Virus record (IMG/VR): IMGVR_UViG_3300026116_000042
Coordinates: 1-61,815 of that record
DNA from: a virus
Length of the DNA: 61,815 nucleotides
Strand: one strand, 5' to 3'
In this document: positions 3-61,815 of the stretch, piece after piece
Layout: every line of letters begins with the position of its first letter
Numbering within the stretch: the first letter of the stretch is position 1
The notes under the pieces: generated by a model
Told to the model about the DNA's origin: nothing
The model's input: the letters and a program-made list of their open reading frames with translations, nothing else
Database searches by the model: none
Position numbers and translations under genes: made by a program

Positions 3-533
3 TCCGAGGGTGAGAAGTTCAGTCACACTTATCCTGAGCGAATGTGGCCCAAGCACGCTGAAATGCCACCCCCAGAAGTTGGGTCTGGTTTTTTGCCGAC
101 CCAGCATGGGATTCGATTTGACTATGGCGATCTTCAGGATGTGGTAAATCAGCTCGCAGCAACTCCGATGACTCGTCAGGCCTACCTCCCGATCTGGTTT
201 CCAGAGGACACTGGAGTTGTTCATGGTAAGCGGGTTCCCTGCACACTCGGGTATCACTTCATCATCACCCCGAGCGGATATCTCGACATCTCATACTTCA
301 TGCGATCAACTGACCTGCTAAGGCACTTCCAGGATGACGTCTACATGGCAATGCGACTTGCCCAATGGGTTGTCGAGCGCATCCAGCAGGTGTGGGATGG
401 TCGAGATTCTGGGTCCCCTATCGCTGAGCTCAAGGTTGGCAAGCTGATCTTCCACACTGCCAACATGCATATCTTCGAGGGCGACAACGCGTTGATCGAT
501 TTCTGGAAGACTCAAGATCGGTTGTGGTACTAA
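3..533 (+). CDS. ThyA-family pyrimidine C5-transferase, probable dCMP hydroxymethylase (C-terminal part)
   Basis: The reading frame is open from base 3 and lacks its start; the missing N-terminal part lies at 61519-61815. Seen: FSHTYPERMWPK near the start, the nucleophile Cys in RVPC (codon 240-242), the phosphate-binding RSTD (303-314), and a late HTANMHIF block. These are ThyA-superfamily landmarks. Known: in thymidylate synthase an Asn eleven residues after the Arg of RSxD selects dUMP; T4 dCMP hydroxymethylase has Asp there. Here that codon (336-338) is Asp. I infer hydroxymethylation (or methylation) of dCMP using methylene-tetrahydrofolate, in the cytoplasm, to make a modified precursor for DNA. 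The stop overlaps the start of the dCMP deaminase gene (TAATG). A diverged thymidylate synthase remains possible, but thyX elsewhere makes that redundant. Confidence 0.8.
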   Translation, partial: SEGEKFSHTYPERMWPKHAEMPPPEVGSGFLPTQHGIRFDYGDLQDVVNQLAATPMTRQAYLPIWFPEDTGVVHGKRVPCTLGYHFIITPSGYLDISYFMRSTDLLRHFQDDVYMAMRLAQWVVERIQQVWDGRDSGSPIAELKVGKLIFHTANMHIFEGDNALIDFWKTQDRLWY

Positions 534-967
534 TGGAGCGAATTAGTCGATCAGATATGCTGATGGAGATGGCCTTTACTGCCGCCAAGAGGGGCACATG
601 CAGTAGATTACAGGTCGGGGCAATCATCAGTAAGGATGGTCGAGTTATCTCAACAGGTTACAATGGTGTACCTGCTGGATTGCCCCATTGTGTTCACAAC
701 CACCTCATGCTCGAGAGTGCTGAGATGGGTTGTACTCAGGCTGAACATGCTGAGCGAAACGCCATTTACTATGCGGCTCGGTATGGAACTGCGCTCGAGG
801 GGTCAGTCATCCATACTACCCATGCTCCCTGCGAAAACTGCGCGAGAGCCATTATCAACGCTGGTATTCGACAGGTGACCTACACCATTCCCTATCGCAA
901 GACAGAAGGAATTGACCTTCTCAGGCAGGCGGGGATTGATGTCATCGAAGTGTCAATACATAAGTGA
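533..967 (+). CDS. dCMP/cytidine deaminase family protein
   Basis: Zinc-dependent deaminase of 144 residues, probably converting dCMP to dUMP, the substrate of ThyX. Seen: zinc and catalytic motif HAE at residues 72-74, PCENC at 99-103, and the dCMP-deaminase-like N-terminal TCSRLQVGAII and GYNG blocks. I chose ATG 533 because it forms TAATG with the preceding stop; GTG 524 is possible. It sits directly between the dCMP hydroxymethylase-like gene and the DNA polymerase, so it competes for the same dCMP pool. Length is normal for the family. Confidence 0.88.
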   Translation: MERISRSDMLMEMAFTAAKRGTCSRLQVGAIISKDGRVISTGYNGVPAGLPHCVHNHLMLESAEMGCTQAEHAERNAIYYAARYGTALEGSVIHTTHAPCENCARAIINAGIRQVTYTIPYRKTEGIDLLRQAGIDVIEVSIHK

Positions 968-979: not shown

Positions 980-3511
980 ATGCCGGTAATCGTTCAATGG
1001 TGCCCATACTGCAATGAGCACGAGGTCCAGTCATTCGCCAAGGGTGCGCTCGACGCTCGTATCGCGGTAGTCACCAATCGTAAGAACTCAGGCAAGTTCC
1101 AGCAGGCCCTTGAACTTGAACTGACCCAAATGGGCCTGGATGTCAATTCCCTGTATTTCACTCCGGTAATCAAGTGTAGTGACTTTGAAACAACTCTCAC
1201 AAACAAGCAACTAAAGGAACATGCGGCAACGCATTTGATTCCCGAGCTTGAGTTACTACCCAATCTCGAACTTGTACTTGCTCTCGGTAATGAGGTACTA
1301 CTTGCCACCACTGGTAAGTCGGGCATTACTAAGTATCGGGCTAAGCCGTTCGATGGACCAAAGGGTTCAACGGTTATCGCCACCATTTCACCGTCAGCTG
1401 TCAATCGTAACCCAGGCCAGAAACCGGGTTACCTTGGTGATCTTCGGTTGTTTGCGAATCGAGCCAAGGGGCAGACATCAGGTATCCCTAAGCCATCATA
1501 CCTGACAGTCGATACCAAAGAGGCATTTCAGAAGATGCTTCGTATCCTCGACATGACTGATGAAATCTACATCGACATCGAGACCAAGGGAGGTGAGTAT
1601 TACGAGGCTGAAAAGGGATCAAAGATGATCTCTCTTGCAGCTACCTGCGTAATCGTCACTCCTCTCGGGGTAAAGAAGCGAACGGTATTCGCTCTACCCC
1701 TTGGCCATGTTCAGTCACCATGGCGCAATCAATGGCAACACATCCTCGAAATCTTCGGTCGCCATTGCAAGAACATTCGTAAGACTGTTGCCCACAATGG
1801 ATCATTCGATCTAAAGTGGCTCATCACCTATGGTGTCCATCTGACTCTAACCTTTGATACAATGCTAGCCATTGCCCTGCTAAACGAGAATGTTCAAAAG
1901 GGCCTCAAGCCTCAGGCAATCGCTCGGCTTGGTGTGGAGCCATGGGGTATCGACACTGGCGACCTGGATAAATACCCAATCAGTGAAGTGCTAGAGTACA
2001 ACGTTCTTGATACTTGGTACATGTACTTCATCAAGCAACAGTTGGTCGAAGAGCTAAAGAAGCAACCTCGTCTTGCTCGGATCATGGCTAAGCTTTGGAT
2101 GCCCGCTCAGAATGAATTGCTCCCATGCGAGATTCGTGGAGCCTGGCTCGATGTTGATCGACTCAAGGAACGCAAGCCAATTGCTCAGCAGAACCTGCTC
2201 GACATCGAACAACGAATTCGAGACGCGGCTGAATTGCCCGACCCCAGTGATCCTGACTGGCCTGCAACGATCAAACATCTGAAGTCTGGTGACAAGCGTA
2301 TTCCCTGGACTGAGAATTTCAATGCCTCGATGTTCGCTCGATGGATGCTGTTCGACTGGTGCGGTCTTCCAGTTGAAGAGCGGGGTAAGGATAAGGAAGA
2401 TGGTCGACCTGGCGATCCAAGTATGCGTGAGGGGTTGCTTGAAGCACTAAAGGGCAAGCATCCAGTTGTTGAACCCATGCTTGAAAGGGTTACAGCTAAC
2501 AAGCACCTAACCTCGTTCTTCAATCCCTATGAGGAGTTGTACGATGAAGATCATCGTATCCACACAACATTCAAGCTGGCGGGCACAGTTACTGGCAGAC
2601 TATCATCCGGGAAGTCCGACCAAGATAAAATCAGTGGTACTCGAGGTAAGATGCGCGGTGTCAACCTGCAGCAAGTACCTCGAGACCCTTTCATTCGAGG
2701 CCTGTTTGGAGCACCTCCGGGTTGGACATTCGTTGAAAGTGACTACAGCCAAATCGAACTTAGGATCGCTGCCTACCTAGCCAACGAAACAACGATGAAG
2801 CACCTGTACTCGATTGGCGAGGACATTCACCTTCAGACTGCTATGCGAGTTACCGGGTTGCCTGCTAGTCAGGTTACCAAGGAGATTCGCAAGAAGGTTG
2901 GTAAGCCGGTTAACTTCGGTTTTCTCTATGGAATGGGCCCAGCAAAGTTCATCGTCACTGCATTTGAGAACTATGGTTCTACCTTCAGCATTGAAGAGGC
3001 CCAGGCTGCTCGCAAGGCCTACTTCGACTTGTATCCCAAATTGCTTCCCTGGCACGCCAAAATGCGTCGCCTCGTCAACGAATATGGGCGCGTCGAAAGT
3101 CCTCTGGGACGCGTCCGGCACCTCCCTGACATCTACTCACCTGATAAGGGGGTGCGCATGGAAGCCGAACGGCAGGCGATCAATAGCCCCGTTCAAGGAT
3201 TCGCTTCTGACCTCGCACTATTGTCGATGATCGTTATCAACCAGCGATTCCGCGAACAGAACATCAAGGGTTACTGCATCGGTCTGGTACATGACGCTCT
3301 CAACTATGAGATTCGTGACGACTACCTGAGTCGGGCTCTCCCGATTATCAAGGATACAATGGAAGACATGGATATTGTCTACAGGAAGTTCGGTACTGTA
3401 GTTGACATCCCGATCATTGCCGACCTCGCCGTGGGTCAACACTGGGGTGACAAGGTCGAGCTTACAGAGGATCAGGTCTACGACTTCAAACTCGAGTATA
3501 AGGGAGCTTAG
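980..3511 (+). CDS. DNA polymerase I family, with UDG-like N-terminal and 3'-5' exonuclease domains
   Basis: Replicative family A polymerase, 843 residues. Seen in order: residues 1-165 resemble the type 4/5 uracil-DNA glycosylase fold (TPVIKC, LALGNEV, a late SPSAVN), but the catalytic GE-PG block is missing, so this domain is probably structural or DNA-binding. The 3'-5' exonuclease carries DIE at 199-201, NGSFD at 273-277 and YNVLDT at 340-345. The polymerase domain has motif A DYSQIELR near 587, motif B RKKVGKPVNFGFLYG near 637-651 and motif C HDA near 770, where most relatives have HDE. Known: SPO1, which has hydroxymethyluracil DNA, also has a UDG-PolA fusion. No 5'-3' exonuclease domain. 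The O-helix aromatic is Phe. Confidence 0.95.
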   Translation: MPVIVQWCPYCNEHEVQSFAKGALDARIAVVTNRKNSGKFQQALELELTQMGLDVNSLYFTPVIKCSDFETTLTNKQLKEHAATHLIPELELLPNLELVLALGNEVLLATTGKSGITKYRAKPFDGPKGSTVIATISPSAVNRNPGQKPGYLGDLRLFANRAKGQTSGIPKPSYLTVDTKEAFQKMLRILDMTDEIYIDIETKGGEYYEAEKGSKMISLAATCVIVTPLGVKKRTVFALPLGHVQSPWRNQWQHILEIFGRHCKNIRKTVAHNGSFDLKWLITYGVHLTLTFDTMLAIALLNENVQKGLKPQAIARLGVEPWGIDTGDLDKYPISEVLEYNVLDTWYMYFIKQQLVEELKKQPRLARIMAKLWMPAQNELLPCEIRGAWLDVDRLKERKPIAQQNLLDIEQRIRDAAELPDPSDPDWPATIKHLKSGDKRIPWTENFNASMFARWMLFDWCGLPVEERGKDKEDGRPGDPSMREGLLEALKGKHPVVEPMLERVTANKHLTSFFNPYEELYDEDHRIHTTFKLAGTVTGRLSSGKSDQDKISGTRGKMRGVNLQQVPRDPFIRGLFGAPPGWTFVESDYSQIELRIAAYLANETTMKHLYSIGEDIHLQTAMRVTGLPASQVTKEIRKKVGKPVNFGFLYGMGPAKFIVTAFENYGSTFSIEEAQAARKAYFDLYPKLLPWHAKMRRLVNEYGRVESPLGRVRHLPDIYSPDKGVRMEAERQAINSPVQGFASDLALLSMIVINQRFREQNIKGYCIGLVHDALNYEIRDDYLSRALPIIKDTMEDMDIVYRKFGTVVDIPIIADLAVGQHWGDKVELTEDQVYDFKLEYKGA

Positions 3512-14542: not shown

Positions 14543-14676
14543 AGAATCGACGAGTGATGACCTCTCGACTATGTCAGCGTGAGGATGATGGAACCTATTG
14601 GACTCTCCTAGTAGGGTTCATGAATGGCCTTTGTTATATGCAGATCACTGCAAGGATTGAGACGCGACATGTTTAG
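14539..14676 (+). CDS. Hypothetical protein (45 aa)
   Basis: Starts at GTG 14539, overlapping the previous stop (GTGA), and its stop overlaps the ATG of the SLOG gene. The tight overlaps on both sides are the main evidence. Sequence VKNRRVMTSRLCQRE then an aromatic patch; no family recognised. Confidence 0.45.
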   Translation: MKNRRVMTSRLCQREDDGTYWTLLVGFMNGLCYMQITARIETRHV

Positions 14677-15058
14677 AGTCCTGATCACAGGCAGTCGGGA
14701 TTGGGCCGACTATGCACTGATCGAGCACAAATTACAGAAGCTCTCAGAGATGCTTGAGGAGCGACCTGCGACGCTTGTGAGTGGTGCATGCCCAACTGGC
14801 GCTGATCGTATGGCGGAGGCCGCATGGAGCCGATTGTTCGGGCCATGGGTGGCAACACCTCAGCGACTCTTAGAACGTCACCCTGCTGACTGGCGTACCA
14901 ACGGTAAAAGTGCCGGCTTCATTCGGAACAAAGAGATGGTCGACCTCGGGGCCAATCTCTGTATGGCATTTTCAAGGAATGAGTCACGCGGGACTGCACA
15001 CACGATCCAGCTGGCTCAGGCTGCAGGCATCAAGACTCTGATTTATAGGTCACATTGA
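14669..15058 (+). CDS. YspA-type SLOG domain protein
   Basis: Protein of 129 residues. Seen: RVLITGSRDWADY at the start, LVSGACPTGADRMAEAAW in the middle (the glycine-rich nucleotide-binding loop of the cpYpsA-related SLOG family) and NKEMVDLGANLCMAF. Known: SLOG proteins bind or process nucleotide derivatives; phage members have no settled role. I use ATG 14669 overlapping the previous stop; the frame opens upstream at 14624 without a ribosome site. Confidence 0.75.
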   Translation: MFRVLITGSRDWADYALIEHKLQKLSEMLEERPATLVSGACPTGADRMAEAAWSRLFGPWVATPQRLLERHPADWRTNGKSAGFIRNKEMVDLGANLCMAFSRNESRGTAHTIQLAQAAGIKTLIYRSH

Positions 15059-21378: not shown

Positions 21379-21641
21379 TCGACCCATTCCAGGCCGCAAA
21401 CCGACCCGGTGTTCCACACAGGCCTACTCGGCTTGAGCGGAAGTATGCAAGACTGAAGGCGGAAGTGGCGCGCTATAAGGCGCAGGTTGAGGCTTATTCA
21501 GATAAGTCCATCGCTGGTGCCATGTTCGGCGACAAGCTCAAGGTCCCAACTCTTACACTGAACTCGCTGGCAATTGCTCAAGGCAAGCTCGCGGCGTTCG
21601 AGTCTCATCACCCGGAGTTCCAGATTGGGGACATGAAATGA
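21375..21641 (+). CDS. Coiled-coil hypothetical protein (88 aa)
   Basis: Long amphipathic helix (LERKYARLKAEVARYKAQVE) typical of a coiled coil; ATGA overlaps at both ends. Lies directly before thyX. Confidence 0.55.
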   Translation: MIDPFQAANRPGVPHRPTRLERKYARLKAEVARYKAQVEAYSDKSIAGAMFGDKLKVPTLTLNSLAIAQGKLAAFESHHPEFQIGDMK

Positions 21642-22333
21642 TGCCAAACTTCCGTTCTGACGTCGTTGTCAAGCTCATTGACTCGATGGCGTCTGACATG
21701 GCTGTCACCAGAGCAGCTCAGGTGTCAGTCAAGGGGGAAAATAACCCTGAAACTGACATGCCAAGGCTCATTCGGTACCTCATGGAGAACCGACATGGCT
21801 CGCCATTCGAGCATTCGGTGTTTACCTTCTTCGTGGAGGCACCAATCTTTGTCTTTCGTGAGTGGCATCGGCATCGGATGTCTTCGATCAACGAAATGAG
21901 CGGGCGATACACCACGCTGAAGCCTGATTTCTACGTACCGGCGGCGAATCGGAAGCTCATGAACATCGGTACAAGCGCTCGCCCCGAGTTCGCGCCTGGT
22001 ACTCCTCAGCTTTCAAGGCTTGTCGAGAGCAATATCGCTGGTGTTTGCAGCGAAGCATGGGTTAGTTACCAGGAAATGCTCGCCGCAGGGGTTGCCAACG
22101 AGGTTGCGAGGCTTGTTTTACCAGTTACGACCTACTCGCAGATGTATTGGACTGTCAACGCACGATCGCTGATGAACTTTCTCTCCCTTCGGATCGATTC
22201 GCCTGACTCGACACACCGTAGTCGACCCCAGTGGGAGATTCAGATGGGCGCTGAACAGATGGAGGCAGAGTTTGCACGCCTCATGCCACACACCCACGAG
22301 GCATTCGTTCAGTCAGGACGGATGGCGCCATGA
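21638..22333 (+). CDS. thyX: Flavin-dependent thymidylate synthase
   Basis: ThyX, 231 residues: makes dTMP from dUMP with FAD, NADPH and methylene-tetrahydrofolate. Seen: the signature RHRX7S (RHRMSSINEMS, residues 78-88) then GRY, plus EVARLVLPVTTY and NARSLMNFLSLR, which bind dUMP and FAD. Its presence means dTMP supply does not depend on the two ThyA-superfamily genes at the window ends, which supports another substrate for them. ATGA overlaps on both sides. Confidence 0.95.
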   Translation: MMPNFRSDVVVKLIDSMASDMAVTRAAQVSVKGENNPETDMPRLIRYLMENRHGSPFEHSVFTFFVEAPIFVFREWHRHRMSSINEMSGRYTTLKPDFYVPAANRKLMNIGTSARPEFAPGTPQLSRLVESNIAGVCSEAWVSYQEMLAAGVANEVARLVLPVTTYSQMYWTVNARSLMNFLSLRIDSPDSTHRSRPQWEIQMGAEQMEAEFARLMPHTHEAFVQSGRMAP

Positions 22334-26610: not shown

Positions 26611-27108
26611 ATGAGCAGCAATCTGATCGACCATGCCAACCGCGAACTCGACCTCCTGGGGTGGCCACAGCTCACCCGCGAGCAGATGCGAGGCAAGTTC
26701 CCGATTCAGTCTGATGATGACTACGATCGGATGCTTCGGAAGGCGATCTTGCAGTTGGTGACTGACTTCGCAGGTCAGAACCACTCAGGCCATTCTGCGG
26801 CAATGGTCATCTCGATCACTCACAAGTTGCTTCAGTTCCAGAATCTCTCGCCCATCACTGACAACCCCGATGAGTGGATCCAGCAGAGAGAGCTGGTAGG
26901 TTTCGAAGTCTGGCAGAACCGTCGCAACAGTACGTTGTTCTCAAGTGATGGCGGTAAGACCTACTACGGTCTCGATGATCCGATGCCGGCATGGGCCAAG
27001 TGGGTCAAGAAGAACATCCCCATCGCCATCCGATCGCGGGTGTGGAAGAAGCGCAACCCGATCCACTTCCTCGAACTGAAGCGATCTGCTCATGTTGATG
27101 CAGAGTAA
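26611..27108 (+). CDS. Hypothetical protein (165 aa)
   Basis: Good ribosome site TAGGAG. Begins with a helical region resembling small host-interaction phage proteins, ends in a basic Trp-rich part (AWAKWVKKNIPIAIRSRVWK). Not recognised. More GC-ending codons than neighbours. Confidence 0.58.
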   Translation: MSSNLIDHANRELDLLGWPQLTREQMRGKFPIQSDDDYDRMLRKAILQLVTDFAGQNHSGHSAAMVISITHKLLQFQNLSPITDNPDEWIQQRELVGFEVWQNRRNSTLFSSDGGKTYYGLDDPMPAWAKWVKKNIPIAIRSRVWKKRNPIHFLELKRSAHVDAE

Positions 27109-28754: not shown

Positions 28755-29156
28755 ATGGGTGACAAGAAGAAGTCCACACCCGAAGCAAAACAGGCAAATA
28801 AGGCCGCGGCATCTGGCGACGCAAAACGCGCTCGCACCGAGGCTCGCAAAGAGAAGAACCGACTCGCGAATGAGGCTCGCTATCGTGCGAATCTCGAGAA
28901 GGCCCAGATGAGAGGTCTCGAGCCGATCAAGGTCCCGGTGACCAAAGTCAAGACCATCAAGAAGGGGAAGAAGATCATCAAGCGGGTCGAGACTACTCCC
29001 CGCACTCTTTCGCCGGCCGAACTTCTGCGTCGAGATGATCGACTCCGCCGGCAACGTGAACGTGAGGCCCGAGAGGCTCTCGAGCAGGAAGCTCAGGATT
29101 CGCTTCTCAACGACATCGAACAGCGGCTCTTGACCGCAGACCTCGAAGTGCTCTGA
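28755..29156 (+). CDS. Basic coiled-coil protein (133 aa)
   Basis: Highly charged: Lys/Arg/Ala-rich N-terminus, then KVPVTKVKTIKKGKKIIKRV, then a long Arg/Glu helix. Ribosome site AAAGGA. Stop overlaps the next ATG. Likely nucleic-acid binding; not recognised. Confidence 0.58.
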   Translation: MGDKKKSTPEAKQANKAAASGDAKRARTEARKEKNRLANEARYRANLEKAQMRGLEPIKVPVTKVKTIKKGKKIIKRVETTPRTLSPAELLRRDDRLRRQREREAREALEQEAQDSLLNDIEQRLLTADLEVL

Positions 29157-29665
29157 TGGATCAGCCGGAGTGGTTTTTCTCTGATGCTCTCCTGAGCTCA
29201 GATGAGAAGTATCGATACACCCTCGAGCGCAAGTGGGATCGTAGTAGTTGGTCACTCCCCATCGTAATGCTCAACCCGAGCACAGCTGACGCGTCAATCG
29301 ATGATCCCACAATCAAGTCGTGCATGAGAGTGGCTCGAGCCAATGGGTGGGGGGGCATCTTTGTGATGAATCTCTACGCATATCGTACGACCTACCCATA
29401 CATGCTTGAACAGGAAGGGTACCCTGAGGGCCCTAACAACGATAAGCATCTCGAAGCCATGCTGGAAACCTGTCGAGAACAGGGTGTTTCAATCATGGTC
29501 GCTTGGGGTAAGCATGCTCAAAAAGACCGAGTCAACAAGTTCGTGCAACAGGCAGCAGGTGTGGATTTGCTTTGCTGGAAGCAGAACCTTGATGGCTCCC
29601 CTCGACACCCGCTTTACGCCCCTGGGCATGCACGTCTGATCGATTTCAACCTAGATATGGTATGA
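29156..29665 (+). CDS. DUF1643 family protein
   Basis: Protein of 169 residues. Seen: VMLNPSTADASIDDPTI, MNLYAYRTTYP, MVAWGKHA and DGSPRHPLY, the ordered conserved blocks of DUF1643. Known: widespread in phages and bacteria, function not established. TGATG-type coupling with the gene before. Confidence 0.85.
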   Translation: MDQPEWFFSDALLSSDEKYRYTLERKWDRSSWSLPIVMLNPSTADASIDDPTIKSCMRVARANGWGGIFVMNLYAYRTTYPYMLEQEGYPEGPNNDKHLEAMLETCREQGVSIMVAWGKHAQKDRVNKFVQQAAGVDLLCWKQNLDGSPRHPLYAPGHARLIDFNLDMV

Positions 29666-56790: not shown

Positions 56791-57165
56791 ATGGGCGGCC
56801 GATATCTTCTCATCGAGTTCGATGATGAAGCCTCTGCATCTCGCTTGCGCGCACAAATTGATAGCGCCACTCTAAAGGGTCGTCCGTTCCGAGTAGTAGG
56901 TCTATTCGCCAAGCCCGGCCCCCGATTCTGCAGGTGTGGAACATGGACCACTTCACGAGGTCAAGTTTCTACCTTGAAGTTCGGGGCTAAGTTTGGATGG
57001 CAGGTATGTACAACCTGTAAACGCCCCGCACCCATCATCAGTTTCTTGAGGAATTTGCTGAAGCCCGAAGACGTGATCCAGCCTCAGACTCATGACACTC
57101 TTGATGGTAAGATGAAGTTGCAATTCTTCCCCCTCGGCCTAAGTGCCCCTACTCGGAGAGTCTAG
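56791..57165 (+). CDS. Zinc-site hypothetical protein (124 aa)
   Basis: ATG 56791 has AAGGAG at the right distance; an earlier ATG at 56749 overlaps the promoter. RFCRCGTW and VCTTCKRPAP form a four-Cys site. Coupled to the next gene (TAGTG). Not recognised. Confidence 0.6.
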   Translation: MGGRYLLIEFDDEASASRLRAQIDSATLKGRPFRVVGLFAKPGPRFCRCGTWTTSRGQVSTLKFGAKFGWQVCTTCKRPAPIISFLRNLLKPEDVIQPQTHDTLDGKMKLQFFPLGLSAPTRRV

Positions 57166-57617
57166 TGCAAACTTTCTTGCCCTACAAGTCTTTCGTTTCA
57201 TCGGCGAAAGTTCTTGATCGACAACGACTTGGTAAACAACGAGTCGAATGCCTGCAAATCATGACCGCTCTGGTCGATAAGACAGGCTGGGTAAATCACC
57301 CTGCGACCAACATGTGGCGAGGGTATGAATGGGCACTCCTCAGTTATGCCATGGTTATCATTGAGGAATGGATCCGGAGAGGGTACAAGGATAATTGCGC
57401 CGATCGAATCCAAGAAGTCTACGATCGCGGCGTTCGAGAAGGCATCATCATTTCCACACCCCGAGTTCCGCCTTGGTTAGGTCTCAAGAAGTTCCATTCA
57501 GCACATCGTGCCAACCTCCTTCGCAAGGACTGGATTTGGTATCACAAGTTCCATTGGAAGGAGAAGGCTGCATCTGTCGATGACGGATACTGGTGGCCAA
57601 CACATCATGGGTATTGA
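57165..57617 (+). CDS. MSMEG_6728-type protein, pyrimidine-dimer DNA glycosylase-like
   Basis: 150 residues, GTG start overlapping the previous stop. MQTFLPYKSFVSSAKVLDRQ...RVECLQIM and HPATNMWRGYEWALLSY...EEWIRRG are the conserved blocks of the MSMEG_6728/PF03013 family, annotated as related to pyrimidine-dimer glycosylase (T4 endonuclease V). Would fit repair or base surveillance in modified DNA. Activity not proven for this branch. Confidence 0.7.
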   Translation: MQTFLPYKSFVSSAKVLDRQRLGKQRVECLQIMTALVDKTGWVNHPATNMWRGYEWALLSYAMVIIEEWIRRGYKDNCADRIQEVYDRGVREGIIISTPRVPPWLGLKKFHSAHRANLLRKDWIWYHKFHWKEKAASVDDGYWWPTHHGY

Positions 57618-59486: not shown

Positions 59487-60014
59487 ATGCTCATCGTAGA
59501 AGGACCGGATGGTGCCGGTAAAACAACGCTGATTCAGGCTCTGCAACATGAGCTCGGGCTTCCCATTGCACCGCGAGTGGTCAGCAAGGATGCTGAAGCC
59601 ATGGTGGATTTGCCCGCATGGGTTGAAATGAACCTCTCTGAGGGCTTTCAGCATAGGATCTTCGATCGACACCGGCTAATCAGCGAGCCTGTCTATGGCC
59701 CAATCCTTCGTCACGATCAAGAAGCCGGCTTTGACGACATCGAGACGATGCAGAGGTGGATGTTCAAGTTCTACAACTTGCAGCCAATCATCATCTACTG
59801 CATTCCGCCGCTGGATACCGTACTGAAGAACATCGCGGGCGACATCGAAAATCAGGTGGTGTGGGATCACATTCGGGGTATCTACTCTGCATATGTGGCT
59901 CGAGCTGCGATCGACTGCCGCGCTGGTCGTAATGTCTTCATCTACGACTACACCCAAGACAACACCCATAACCTCATCTCAATCGTGAAAGGTATCCTGA
60001 ACCGTGTCATCTAA
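59487..60014 (+). CDS. Deoxynucleoside monophosphate kinase
   Basis: 175 residues, thymidylate-kinase-like P-loop kinase. Seen: P-loop EGPDGAGKTT (residues 5-14), and FDRHRLISEPVYG with the DR-H/E substrate motif near 67-79. I infer phosphorylation of a normal or modified dNMP to dNDP; T4 gp1 does this for hydroxymethyl-dCMP. Its place with MazG and the two ThyA-like genes supports the modified substrate. Stop overlaps the MazG GTG region by 11 bp. Confidence 0.82.
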   Translation: MLIVEGPDGAGKTTLIQALQHELGLPIAPRVVSKDAEAMVDLPAWVEMNLSEGFQHRIFDRHRLISEPVYGPILRHDQEAGFDDIETMQRWMFKFYNLQPIIIYCIPPLDTVLKNIAGDIENQVVWDHIRGIYSAYVARAAIDCRAGRNVFIYDYTQDNTHNLISIVKGILNRVI

Positions 60015-60426
60015 CTTCGACGATGTCGGTGAATTCCACCGCAAGTTTGGGCTACCTCGAGTCAAGCCATTCGAGATGCCTCATCCAACAAATCTTCACA
60101 TGGACCCCGCAGTAATGGACTTCAGGTTCAAGTTCCTGCAGGAGGAACTCAAGGAATTCAAAGAAGGCATGGAAGCTGAGGACATCGTCGGAATGGCTGA
60201 TGCTCTCATCGATCTGGTCTATGTGGCCATGGGTACAGCTCACATGTTGGGCTTGCCCTGGCAGGAGCTCTGGGACGATGTTCAACGGGCCAACATGTCT
60301 AAGGAACGGGCTGCCGAAGATGGAAGCAACAGCAAGCGGGGATCAGGTCTGGATGTAATCAAGCCTGAGGGTTGGCGGGGACCTCACGGTGCTTCGATTC
60401 TTAAGCGTCATGGATTTGACATATGA
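60004..60426 (+). CDS. MazG-like nucleotide pyrophosphohydrolase
   Basis: 140 residues, GTG start. Seen: EELKEF near 41-46 and ADALIDLVYVAMG near 64-76, the EExxE and DxxxD metal motifs of the all-alpha NTP-PPase family, then the KPEGWRGP end seen in phage members. Known: T4 dCTPase (gp56) has this fold and breaks dCTP to dCMP, keeping plain C out of DNA and feeding hydroxymethylation. I infer a similar dCTPase/dUTPase job. Confidence 0.85.
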   Translation: MSSNFDDVGEFHRKFGLPRVKPFEMPHPTNLHMDPAVMDFRFKFLQEELKEFKEGMEAEDIVGMADALIDLVYVAMGTAHMLGLPWQELWDDVQRANMSKERAAEDGSNSKRGSGLDVIKPEGWRGPHGASILKRHGFDI

Positions 60427-61457
60427 GACACTACACAGCACCAACAATGACTCAGCTCTATGATGACTTGACTACAAGTCTTATGGAGGGCACCGAAGAC
60501 GAGCTCGACATCATCTCCTCGGTCGATGTGCAGATTCATGACATCGTTGCCGAAGCAGACTCAATGGATTGGGACTTCGACTTCAAATCAGCATGGCTCA
60601 CGAAGTCTCGTTGGTCAATGATGGTACGTCAGTACATAGACCCAGAAGACTTGGAAGCATGGATCGGGCAAGTCACTAAGAAGATCGGGGTCAAGAACCG
60701 TGGAATTGCAGTCCTCAGAACAAAGCTCGTCAAGCCAAGAGGAGGTGCTGCTACAGGTCACACGAACAAGCAAACTCGGACCTGGGGAGCTTGCATGCTT
60801 AACATCAGCTATAAAGCCCTCCCTGTACCTCAAATTACGCTCTACTCTCGTACCAGTTATCTCGGGTACATCGGAGCCCTCGACCTCAGTGTAGCTTGGA
60901 TGGTCGGGAAGTACCTTGCCAAGGAACTTGGCATGGATGTCAAGGACTTCAAGTTTGTCTGGGTCAACCAGGCGATCCAGTGGCACAACTTCAAGTCGCT
61001 AGCGTTCATGTTGAATCACACCGACAAGGCAAAGCGGAAAGCGTATCGCCGACTCCTCATGGAGCCATCGAAGGAACTTCGTGTGGATGAGAAACGTCGC
61101 ATTCTCAACTCGCCGGCGATCAAGCTTTCACGTAAGTGGCTTCAGAAGATCATTCGAGAAGATGCAACTGGTCGTACCTATGGCGATCTGACTTATAACA
61201 CATTCCGACGAATCATCCGACGATTCCACACCGAAGTCTTTGGGCTGGAGCACGCCAAGACATTCGAGGGTTGGTCTTATTACAAGACTGGGGATAAGGT
61301 TGGGCAGCAGAAGGAATATTTCAAGGCCTATGGTTTGCTCCCCAGCGTAAAGGTGGATACCCTTGATTTGTCGCCGATTGGTATGCCCATGAATCGTAAG
61401 TACGGTGAGGCATTCGTCGGGGGCGACGATGACGACTCCGATGACGATGACGAGTAA
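60423..61457 (+). CDS. Second ThyA-superfamily protein, function unknown
   Basis: 344 residues. Seen: TRTWGACMLN (possible nucleophile Cys), LYSRTSYLGYIGALDLSVAW, and WVNQAIQWHNFKS, laid out like the Cys, RSxD...N/D and H-Y blocks of ThyA. The residue eleven after the Arg (60849) is Asp (60882), as in the next gene. Extra C-terminal 120 residues end in an acidic tail. ATGA overlap with MazG. Could be a second nucleotide C5-transferase, an inactive partner subunit, or an enzyme that further alters the hydroxymethyl group. The superfamily assignment is by motif reading only. Confidence 0.6.
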   Translation: MRHYTAPTMTQLYDDLTTSLMEGTEDELDIISSVDVQIHDIVAEADSMDWDFDFKSAWLTKSRWSMMVRQYIDPEDLEAWIGQVTKKIGVKNRGIAVLRTKLVKPRGGAATGHTNKQTRTWGACMLNISYKALPVPQITLYSRTSYLGYIGALDLSVAWMVGKYLAKELGMDVKDFKFVWVNQAIQWHNFKSLAFMLNHTDKAKRKAYRRLLMEPSKELRVDEKRRILNSPAIKLSRKWLQKIIREDATGRTYGDLTYNTFRRIIRRFHTEVFGLEHAKTFEGWSYYKTGDKVGQQKEYFKAYGLLPSVKVDTLDLSPIGMPMNRKYGEAFVGGDDDDSDDDDE

Positions 61458-61518
61458 TCGATCGAGTATCGAGTATTGGCAATCTTAGAGAAGCACTGAA
61501 TCGATTAGGAGATAGACT

Positions 61519-61815
61519 TTGAAGTATTACGCGAATGTGCAGGATTTCCGCGACCTCTTTCGGCTGATGCGAGATGAGTTGTACAATACCCCTGCGATCG
61601 CACGAGGGGAGTGGCAATCGATCCATGATCCGAATGTTCCGAAGGTTCGGGAGATGCTCCATGTCGCCTTCGAGTATCAGATGCCTCGACGAGCCGACGA
61701 TGCAGCATTCCTCACAGGTGCTCGGATGCCCTGGGCTGAAGATCACTTCCAGGAACGAGTAAGCGGGTTGCCCCTCAATCCTGCTCCCAGTGAGGCCTGG
61801 TGGCCATTTGCTTCC
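61519..61815 (+). CDS. ThyA-family, probable dCMP hydroxymethylase (N-terminal part)
   Basis: 99 codons to the window edge, starting at TTG 61519 after AGGAG. Seen: RGEWQSI, PWAEDHFQERVSGLPLNP and a late WWPFAS: the usual N-terminal blocks of phage ThyA-family proteins, which in relatives run into FSHTYPERMW, present at bases 24-53. So this is the front of the gene that opens the window. The two halves are one frame apart as given; one missing base (or 3n+1) would join them into a protein of about 276 residues. Confidence 0.8.
   Translation, partial: MKYYANVQDFRDLFRLMRDELYNTPAIARGEWQSIHDPNVPKVREMLHVAFEYQMPRRADDAAFLTGARMPWAEDHFQERVSGLPLNPAPSEAWWPFAS

Follow-up and report, generated by a model that had tools for sequence, protein, structure and literature searches.

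A conserved phage gene cassette with two thymidylate synthase-fold proteins as a candidate pathway for C5 modification of deoxycytidylate

In the thymidylate synthase (TS) superfamily, an Asp at position 177 selects cytosine (PMC6400193; PMC8670742), and in T4 gp42 the equivalent residue sets cytosine specificity (PMC6400193). The signature proposed for T4-type hydroxymethylases consists of an acid three residues before the catalytic Cys and a Ser/Thr-x-Tyr motif, and D145N by itself abolishes hydroxymethylation in the T4 enzyme (PMC6400193). RB69-type 5-hydroxy-dCMP synthases have also been described (PMC13390438); phages of this type additionally encode putative arabinosyl transferases, and a known 5-hydroxycytosine phage (RB69/NP type) glycosylates its base (PMC13390438). 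According to PMC8670742, positions 177 (Asp) and 147 rank highest in association with cytosine-modified phage contigs, and Asp177 TS, PF01503 and PF00383 are independently associated with such contigs. The 5-hydroxy-dCMP synthases and dCMP hydroxylases include AfhB (9iqu, 9iqc), RB69 ORF048c and probably Thanatos TH1_062.

Here we analysed a complete IMG/VR virus entry of 61,815 bases (IMGVR_UViG_3300026116_000042), a soil phage sequence that is referred to in its entirety as the window. An earlier note on this DNA had proposed a modified-cytosine pathway operating by T4-like 5-hydroxymethylation. Modification of deoxycytidylate remains the best reading, on the strength of the gene set, the Asp177 change, a separate source of dTMP and conservation across unrelated phages; the T4-like chemistry is not supported. 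Gene content, the Asp177 change, tandem TS-fold proteins and wide conservation are all established by sequence and fold. We put the probability that the cassette yields some C5 modification of dC nucleotides at roughly 0.8, with the largest part of that figure assigned to 5-hydroxy, a smaller part to 5-hydroxymethyl and the smallest to methyl or other groups. Two names are coined here: TS-D for the split TS-superfamily protein carrying Asp177, and Q344 for a 344-aa TS-fold protein (phrog_13667). The genes are listed in Table 1.

Table 1. Positions of the cassette genes and of ThyX in the window, with the supporting matches.
Feature	Position	Strand	Evidence
P-loop (d)NMP kinase	59487..60014	+	phrog_761 thymidylate kinase E 3e-20; weak dNK/AAA_33 in Pfam
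MazG/PRA-PH-type nucleotide pyrophosphohydrolase	60004..60426	+	PF01503 E 3.7e-14; phrog_671 E 2.2e-27
Q344, 344-aa TS-fold protein (phrog_13667)	60423..61457	+	predicted fold and hhalign register
TS-D, N-terminal part	61519..61815	+	TTG start after AGGAG; 59.6% identity to Huwbert gp67 residues 16-105
TS-D, C-terminal part	3..533	+	PF00303 E 1.2e-5; phrog_160 E 2.2e-29; 65% identity to Huwbert gp67
dCMP deaminase	524..967	+	PF00383 E 1.6e-23; phrog_174 E 3e-53
Family A DNA polymerase, 3'-5' exonuclease and N-terminal UDG-like domain	980..3511	+	PF00476 E 3.7e-70; PF01612; PF03167 E 2e-5
ThyX	21638..22333	+	PF02511 E 4.1e-50; TIGR02170 E 9.8e-55

The TS-D gene spans both window ends, with its first 99 codons at 61519-61815 and its last 176 codons at 3-530. 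Both halves align to the same orthologue (gp76 of Curtobacterium phage Shrew; gp66 and gp67 of the Microbacterium phages Triscuit and Huwbert, respectively). The record thus resembles a circularly permuted genome in which a short stretch is missing at the cut; by orthologue alignment, TS-D lacks about ten residues there (31 nt, 1 mod 3). A single ThyA-superfamily gene is thus split at this point, as the earlier note had read it, and a reading of the two ends as parts of separate genes is rejected. The TS-D core scores 25.0 bits against PF00303 (cut-off 24.3) and falls far under the NCBIfam cut-offs of curated ThyA models (e.g. 19 of 327 bits). Over 7,392 bases, the IMG/VR contig 3300005577_000058, which comes from a different sample, matches the window exactly; it terminates at window base 61814, within the TS-D gene, so that both assemblies break at this place. 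The missing 31 nt could not be bridged with other contigs, this being the only one found to carry that end.

Codon 336-338 of TS-D is GAC (Asp) and aligns to E. coli TS Asn177. An equivalent Asp occurs in 92 of 92 TS-D members taken from IMG/VR and from named phages, so this substitution is not chance; Asn occupies the position in E. coli ThyA and in the true ThyA proteins of Triscuit and Huwbert. The earlier note had taken the Asp as the mark of a hydroxymethylase, but RB69-type 5-hydroxy-dCMP synthases carry it too, and what it marks is cytosine specificity. The catalytic Cys (codon 240-242) and Arg are invariant in the family, the second phosphate Arg is replaced by Gln, and position 147 is Thr, as in T4, or in some members Ser.

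These features bear directly on whether TS-D could be a dCMP hydroxymethylase that uses folate, with 5-hydroxymethyl-dC in the phage DNA, either plain or decorated by an unrecognised enzyme. Asp177 with Thr after the Cys, the retention of Asp169 and a gene set the same as that of T4 all agree with a gp42-like enzyme. Other residues disagree with it. Three positions before the catalytic Cys, where T4 has Asp145 and ThyA has Leu, all 92 TS-D members have Arg (codon 231-233 in the window), and this is the site at which D145N abolishes hydroxymethylation in T4 (PMC6400193). The Ser/Thr-x-Tyr motif (T4 Ser94, Tyr96) is absent from the sequences compared, neither candidate tyrosine having Ser/Thr at -2; in the window these tyrosines lie in His-Thr-Tyr (FSHTYPER) and Phe-Asp-Tyr (GIRFDYGD), and the choice between them depends on the alignment. 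At the position of the T4 ELxW Glu (Glu60), which is Phe in RB69-type synthases, alignment places an invariant His in TS-D. An invariant Glu follows three residues later, out of register by alignment but displaced by only one helical turn from where the catalytic Glu is expected, a placement that would suit a hydroxymethylase.

Profile comparison gave TS-D a score of 89.2 against the RB69-type 5-hydroxy-dCMP synthases over 234 columns (its whole length), versus 74.6 against the T4-type over 124 columns and 63.1 against ThyA. The top PDB fold match is the AfhB dCMP hydroxylase with dCMP and FAD (9iqc, E 1.9e-12; 9iqu, TM 0.73 by target), ahead of MilA (E 2.3e-12) and T4 dCH (E 1.2e-11) by a small margin; the presence of T4 dCH among the matches fits a hydroxymethylase as well. 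In the phylogenetic tree, TS-D groups with the 5-hydroxy synthases (support 98/92, with a long-branch warning), and the AU test does not reject a tree pairing TS-D with the T4-type, again on long branches (p 0.051 and 0.089), which also leaves room for hydroxymethylation. When an archaeal TS is added, TS-D joins it with weak support (81/54) in the same larger group, and its pairing with the 5-hydroxy group alone is lost. The trees lean towards the 5-hydroxy synthases without deciding.

By profile and fold, TS-D is placed nearer to the dCMP C5-hydroxylases than to T4 gp42. As the T4 signature residues are missing and the 5-hydroxy profile matches better, T4-like hydroxymethylation is not favoured, and we consider 5-hydroxymethyl-dC in this phage unlikely. 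Points against a 5-hydroxy reading were found as well, namely Arg instead of Glu at -3, Asp169 instead of Asn, and Gln for the second phosphate Arg. Because TS-D is without features of the T4-type and of the 5-hydroxy group alike, we call it a separate branch, most likely one working on dCMP. Regarding its chemistry, C5-hydroxylation is our leading guess and 5-hydroxymethylation the second.

For Q344, the second TS-fold protein, Pfam and NCBIfam gave no match; it belongs to a family of unknown function (phrog_13667), and a sequence search of the PDB returned only chance xylanase matches. Its AF2 model (pLDDT 92.3, built with 55 homologues) found AfhB dCMP hydroxylase as the best Foldseek match (9iqu E 1e-7, and 9iqc), followed by MilA, T4 dCH and TS, each with probability 1.00 and with TM by target only ~0.4-0.57. 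On the predicted fold, Q344 is a second ThyA-superfamily protein, in line with the pair of such proteins claimed earlier. Residues Cys124 (60792-60794), Arg143 (60849-60851) and Asp154 (60882-60884) align with Cys146, Arg166 and Asn177 of E. coli TS (hhalign versus TS-D and ThyA; weak E ~0.01). Y71, C124 and R143 are invariant across 55 Q344 sequences, and the position-177 equivalent is Asp in 61 of 63 members (97%) and Glu in the other two. By this register, Q344 and TS-D each bear an Asp where the base is selected.

Phages that infect Microbacterium, Curtobacterium and Streptomyces keep the order kinase, MazG, Q344, TS-D, dCMP deaminase, PolA; those of Gordonia and Mycobacterium, Muddy among them, keep it nearly intact, some with one or two additional genes in between, and it is also present in Serratia and Pseudomonas phages. 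Shrew, Triscuit, Huwbert, Muddy, Zuko, Cozz, Serbin and PMBT14 all have this neighbourhood, and so do dozens of contigs in IMG/VR. Q344 is encoded by at least 85 genomes of isolated phages (68 Gordonia, 10 mycobacterial, 4 Streptomyces, 2 Microbacterium and 1 Curtobacterium). TS-D counts equal Q344 counts in Gordonia, Mycobacterium, Streptomyces and Microbacterium phages, and TS-D is present in every complete Q344-centred neighbourhood in IMG/VR. Conversely, 37 of 80 IMG/VR TS-D loci have no Q344 within reach and have other neighbours; no modification enzyme was recognised among the neighbours of TS-D in phages without Q344. A pattern scan of bacterial and archaeal genomes recovered TS-D on seven MAG contigs only. 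The bins concerned are labelled Lokiarchaeota, Pacearchaeota, Acidobacteria and others (loci L124-L130), and the contigs are possibly binned phage DNA. Q344 is annotated as hypothetical in the records listed and TS-D as thymidylate synthase in nearly all records seen; in Cozz, the TS-D annotation bears the note ThyX. A different cassette is found in Microbacterium phage Carostasia (locus L119), where a T4-like TS with Asp177 and an acid at -3 (NDFIC) lies near a kinase, MazG and a glycosyltransferase related to beta-glucosyl-HMC-alpha-glucosyltransferase; among Microbacterium phages, this cassette is a good candidate for making genuine 5hmC.

Scanning of the window ORFs gave no recognised glycosyltransferase, consistent with the earlier reading, and GT2 is absent from the whole record. 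Among 45 cassette genomes, neither DHFR nor carbamoyltransferase was found, and GT2 occurs in one (Zuko), distant from the cassette. Carbamoyltransferase and, save in Zuko, GT2 were therefore rejected as decorating enzymes, and a methylase with phage-encoded folate recycling lost support for want of DHFR. The papers searched contained no DNA chemistry for Muddy or any other phage with the cassette. Given that the RB69/NP-type phage glycosylates its base, the occurrence of GT2 in 1 of 45 genomes counts against the 5-hydroxy version.

The same scarcity of known decorating enzymes fits another C5 chemistry on dCMP, either methylation or the joint synthesis of a new group by TS-D and Q344. The TS-D active-site set differs from that of either characterised dCMP enzyme, Q344 never occurs without TS-D in complete neighbourhoods, and Asn to Asp alone makes thymidylate synthase a dCMP methylase (cited in PMC8670742). 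Methylation, however, yields dihydrofolate, for which no DHFR was found in the 45 genomes (the host has one), and nothing positive indicates any particular group; we regard these chemistries, taken together, as quite improbable. A broader proposal is that TS-D and Q344 are new TS-fold enzymes that, in sequence or as one complex, add an undescribed C5 group to dCMP without a separate DNA-decorating enzyme. We hold this to be rather unlikely; if true, many actinobacterial phages, Muddy among them, would carry modified cytosine throughout their DNA.

The remaining genes of the set named in the earlier note, a kinase, MazG, dCMP deaminase and a UDG-like/PolA polymerase, are each matched by Pfam or PHROG profiles. 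The kinase occupies the equivalent position in related phages, and its substrate is presumed to be modified dCMP; the reaction predicted for MazG, dCTP to dCMP, is likewise presumed. A UDG-like start is present in 63 of 68 long polymerase ORFs of cassette loci. The family-4 glycosylase motifs of this domain look degenerate in the window (980-1500, +) and in related actinophages, with no GExPG and with TISPS where an HPS/HPA-type motif is expected; the polymerases of Serratia and Pseudomonas phages retain HPA. Such degeneracy suggests that the domain may be base-sensing rather than cutting. Just upstream of the cassette lies a pyrimidine-dimer DNA glycosylase (57165-57617, +; PF03013 E 3.7e-26), labelled endonuclease or hypothetical in relatives. 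Elsewhere, the window encodes a counter-defence gene for a Tad3-like Thoeris inhibitor (26611-27108, +; PF25185 E 2.7e-30), a DUF1643 protein (29156-29665, +; PF07799 E 1.7e-34) and a YspA/SLOG-like protein (14624-15058, +; PF10686 E 8.4e-12).

ThyX provides the separate dTMP source that had been noted earlier. Besides TS-D, ThyX is encoded in 15 of 50 cassette genomes and a true ThyA in 3 more, so TS-D need not produce dTMP there. TS-D adjoins a canonical ThyA in Triscuit (L002, 15432-17137) and Huwbert (L003, 13457-15102), where both genes are annotated thymidylate synthase. Ordinary phage dTTP supply also employs MazG, kinase and dCMP deaminase, which favours a reading without DNA modification, in which TS-D and Q344 would be odd nucleotide enzymes that only raise dTMP or that bind and remove dCMP. 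This fits the 32 of 50 cassette genomes (some of them fragments) in which no other dTMP synthase was recognised, but it is hard to square with Asp for Asn177 in all TS-D members, with the invariant catalytic Cys and Arg, and with the presence of true ThyA beside TS-D in Triscuit and Huwbert and of ThyX in the window, and we give it little credence.

Within the favoured reading, modification of dC nucleotides at C5, we tentatively propose at somewhat less than even odds a 5-hydroxy group of the flavin type, with the cassette acting before DNA synthesis. MazG would cleave host dCTP to dCMP, and TS-D would then work at C5 of dCMP, adding most probably a hydroxyl to give 5-hydroxy-dCMP and not a folate-derived hydroxymethyl. 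Q344, found only with TS-D, may act alongside it or on its product. The phage kinase and host NDP kinase would produce the modified triphosphate, which phage PolA could insert. Leftover dCMP would be converted to dTMP by dCMP deaminase and ThyX, holding plain dCTP low.

If the cassette modifies cytosine, its carriers, including the patient-used Muddy, have altered DNA, which would bear on restriction, CRISPR sensitivity and phage engineering, and a second TS-fold partner enzyme would be added to the known cytosine-modification pathways. Cassette-bearing phages are available in culture, making the product directly testable.

Compared with known systems, TS-D shares with canonical ThyA the superfamily and the core catalytic Cys146, Arg166, Asp169 and His207, and differs by Asn177 to Asp, Leu143 to Arg, His147 to Thr and loss of the C-terminal tail. 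The cytosine-modification networks of MetaGPA resemble the window in combining an Asp177 TS homologue with PF01503 and dCMP deaminase; these networks pair the Asp177 TS with a 5hmC carbamoyltransferase, which the window cassette lacks, and the available part of that source describes no Q344 counterpart (PMC8670742). T4 and the window both co-encode a dCTP hydrolase (putative in the window), a kinase and a deaminase, and gp42 shares with TS-D the TS fold, Asp177, Thr147 and Asp169, whereas Asp145 is replaced by Arg, Ser94-x-Tyr is absent, the catalytic Glu is out of register by alignment and the profile score is lower. Regarding the 5-hydroxy-dCMP synthases, six aligned homologues have Glu three before the Cys and Asn169 where TS-D has Arg and Asp, and no counterpart of the putative arabinosyl transferases of RB69-type phages is recognised beside the window cassette. 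These synthases and TS-D nevertheless have in common the TS fold, Asp177, Pro-Cys-Thr and the lack of a C-terminal TS tail, and the RB69 synthase further shares with TS-D the AED...SG stretch that replaces the folate Glu helix, in which some homologues differ.
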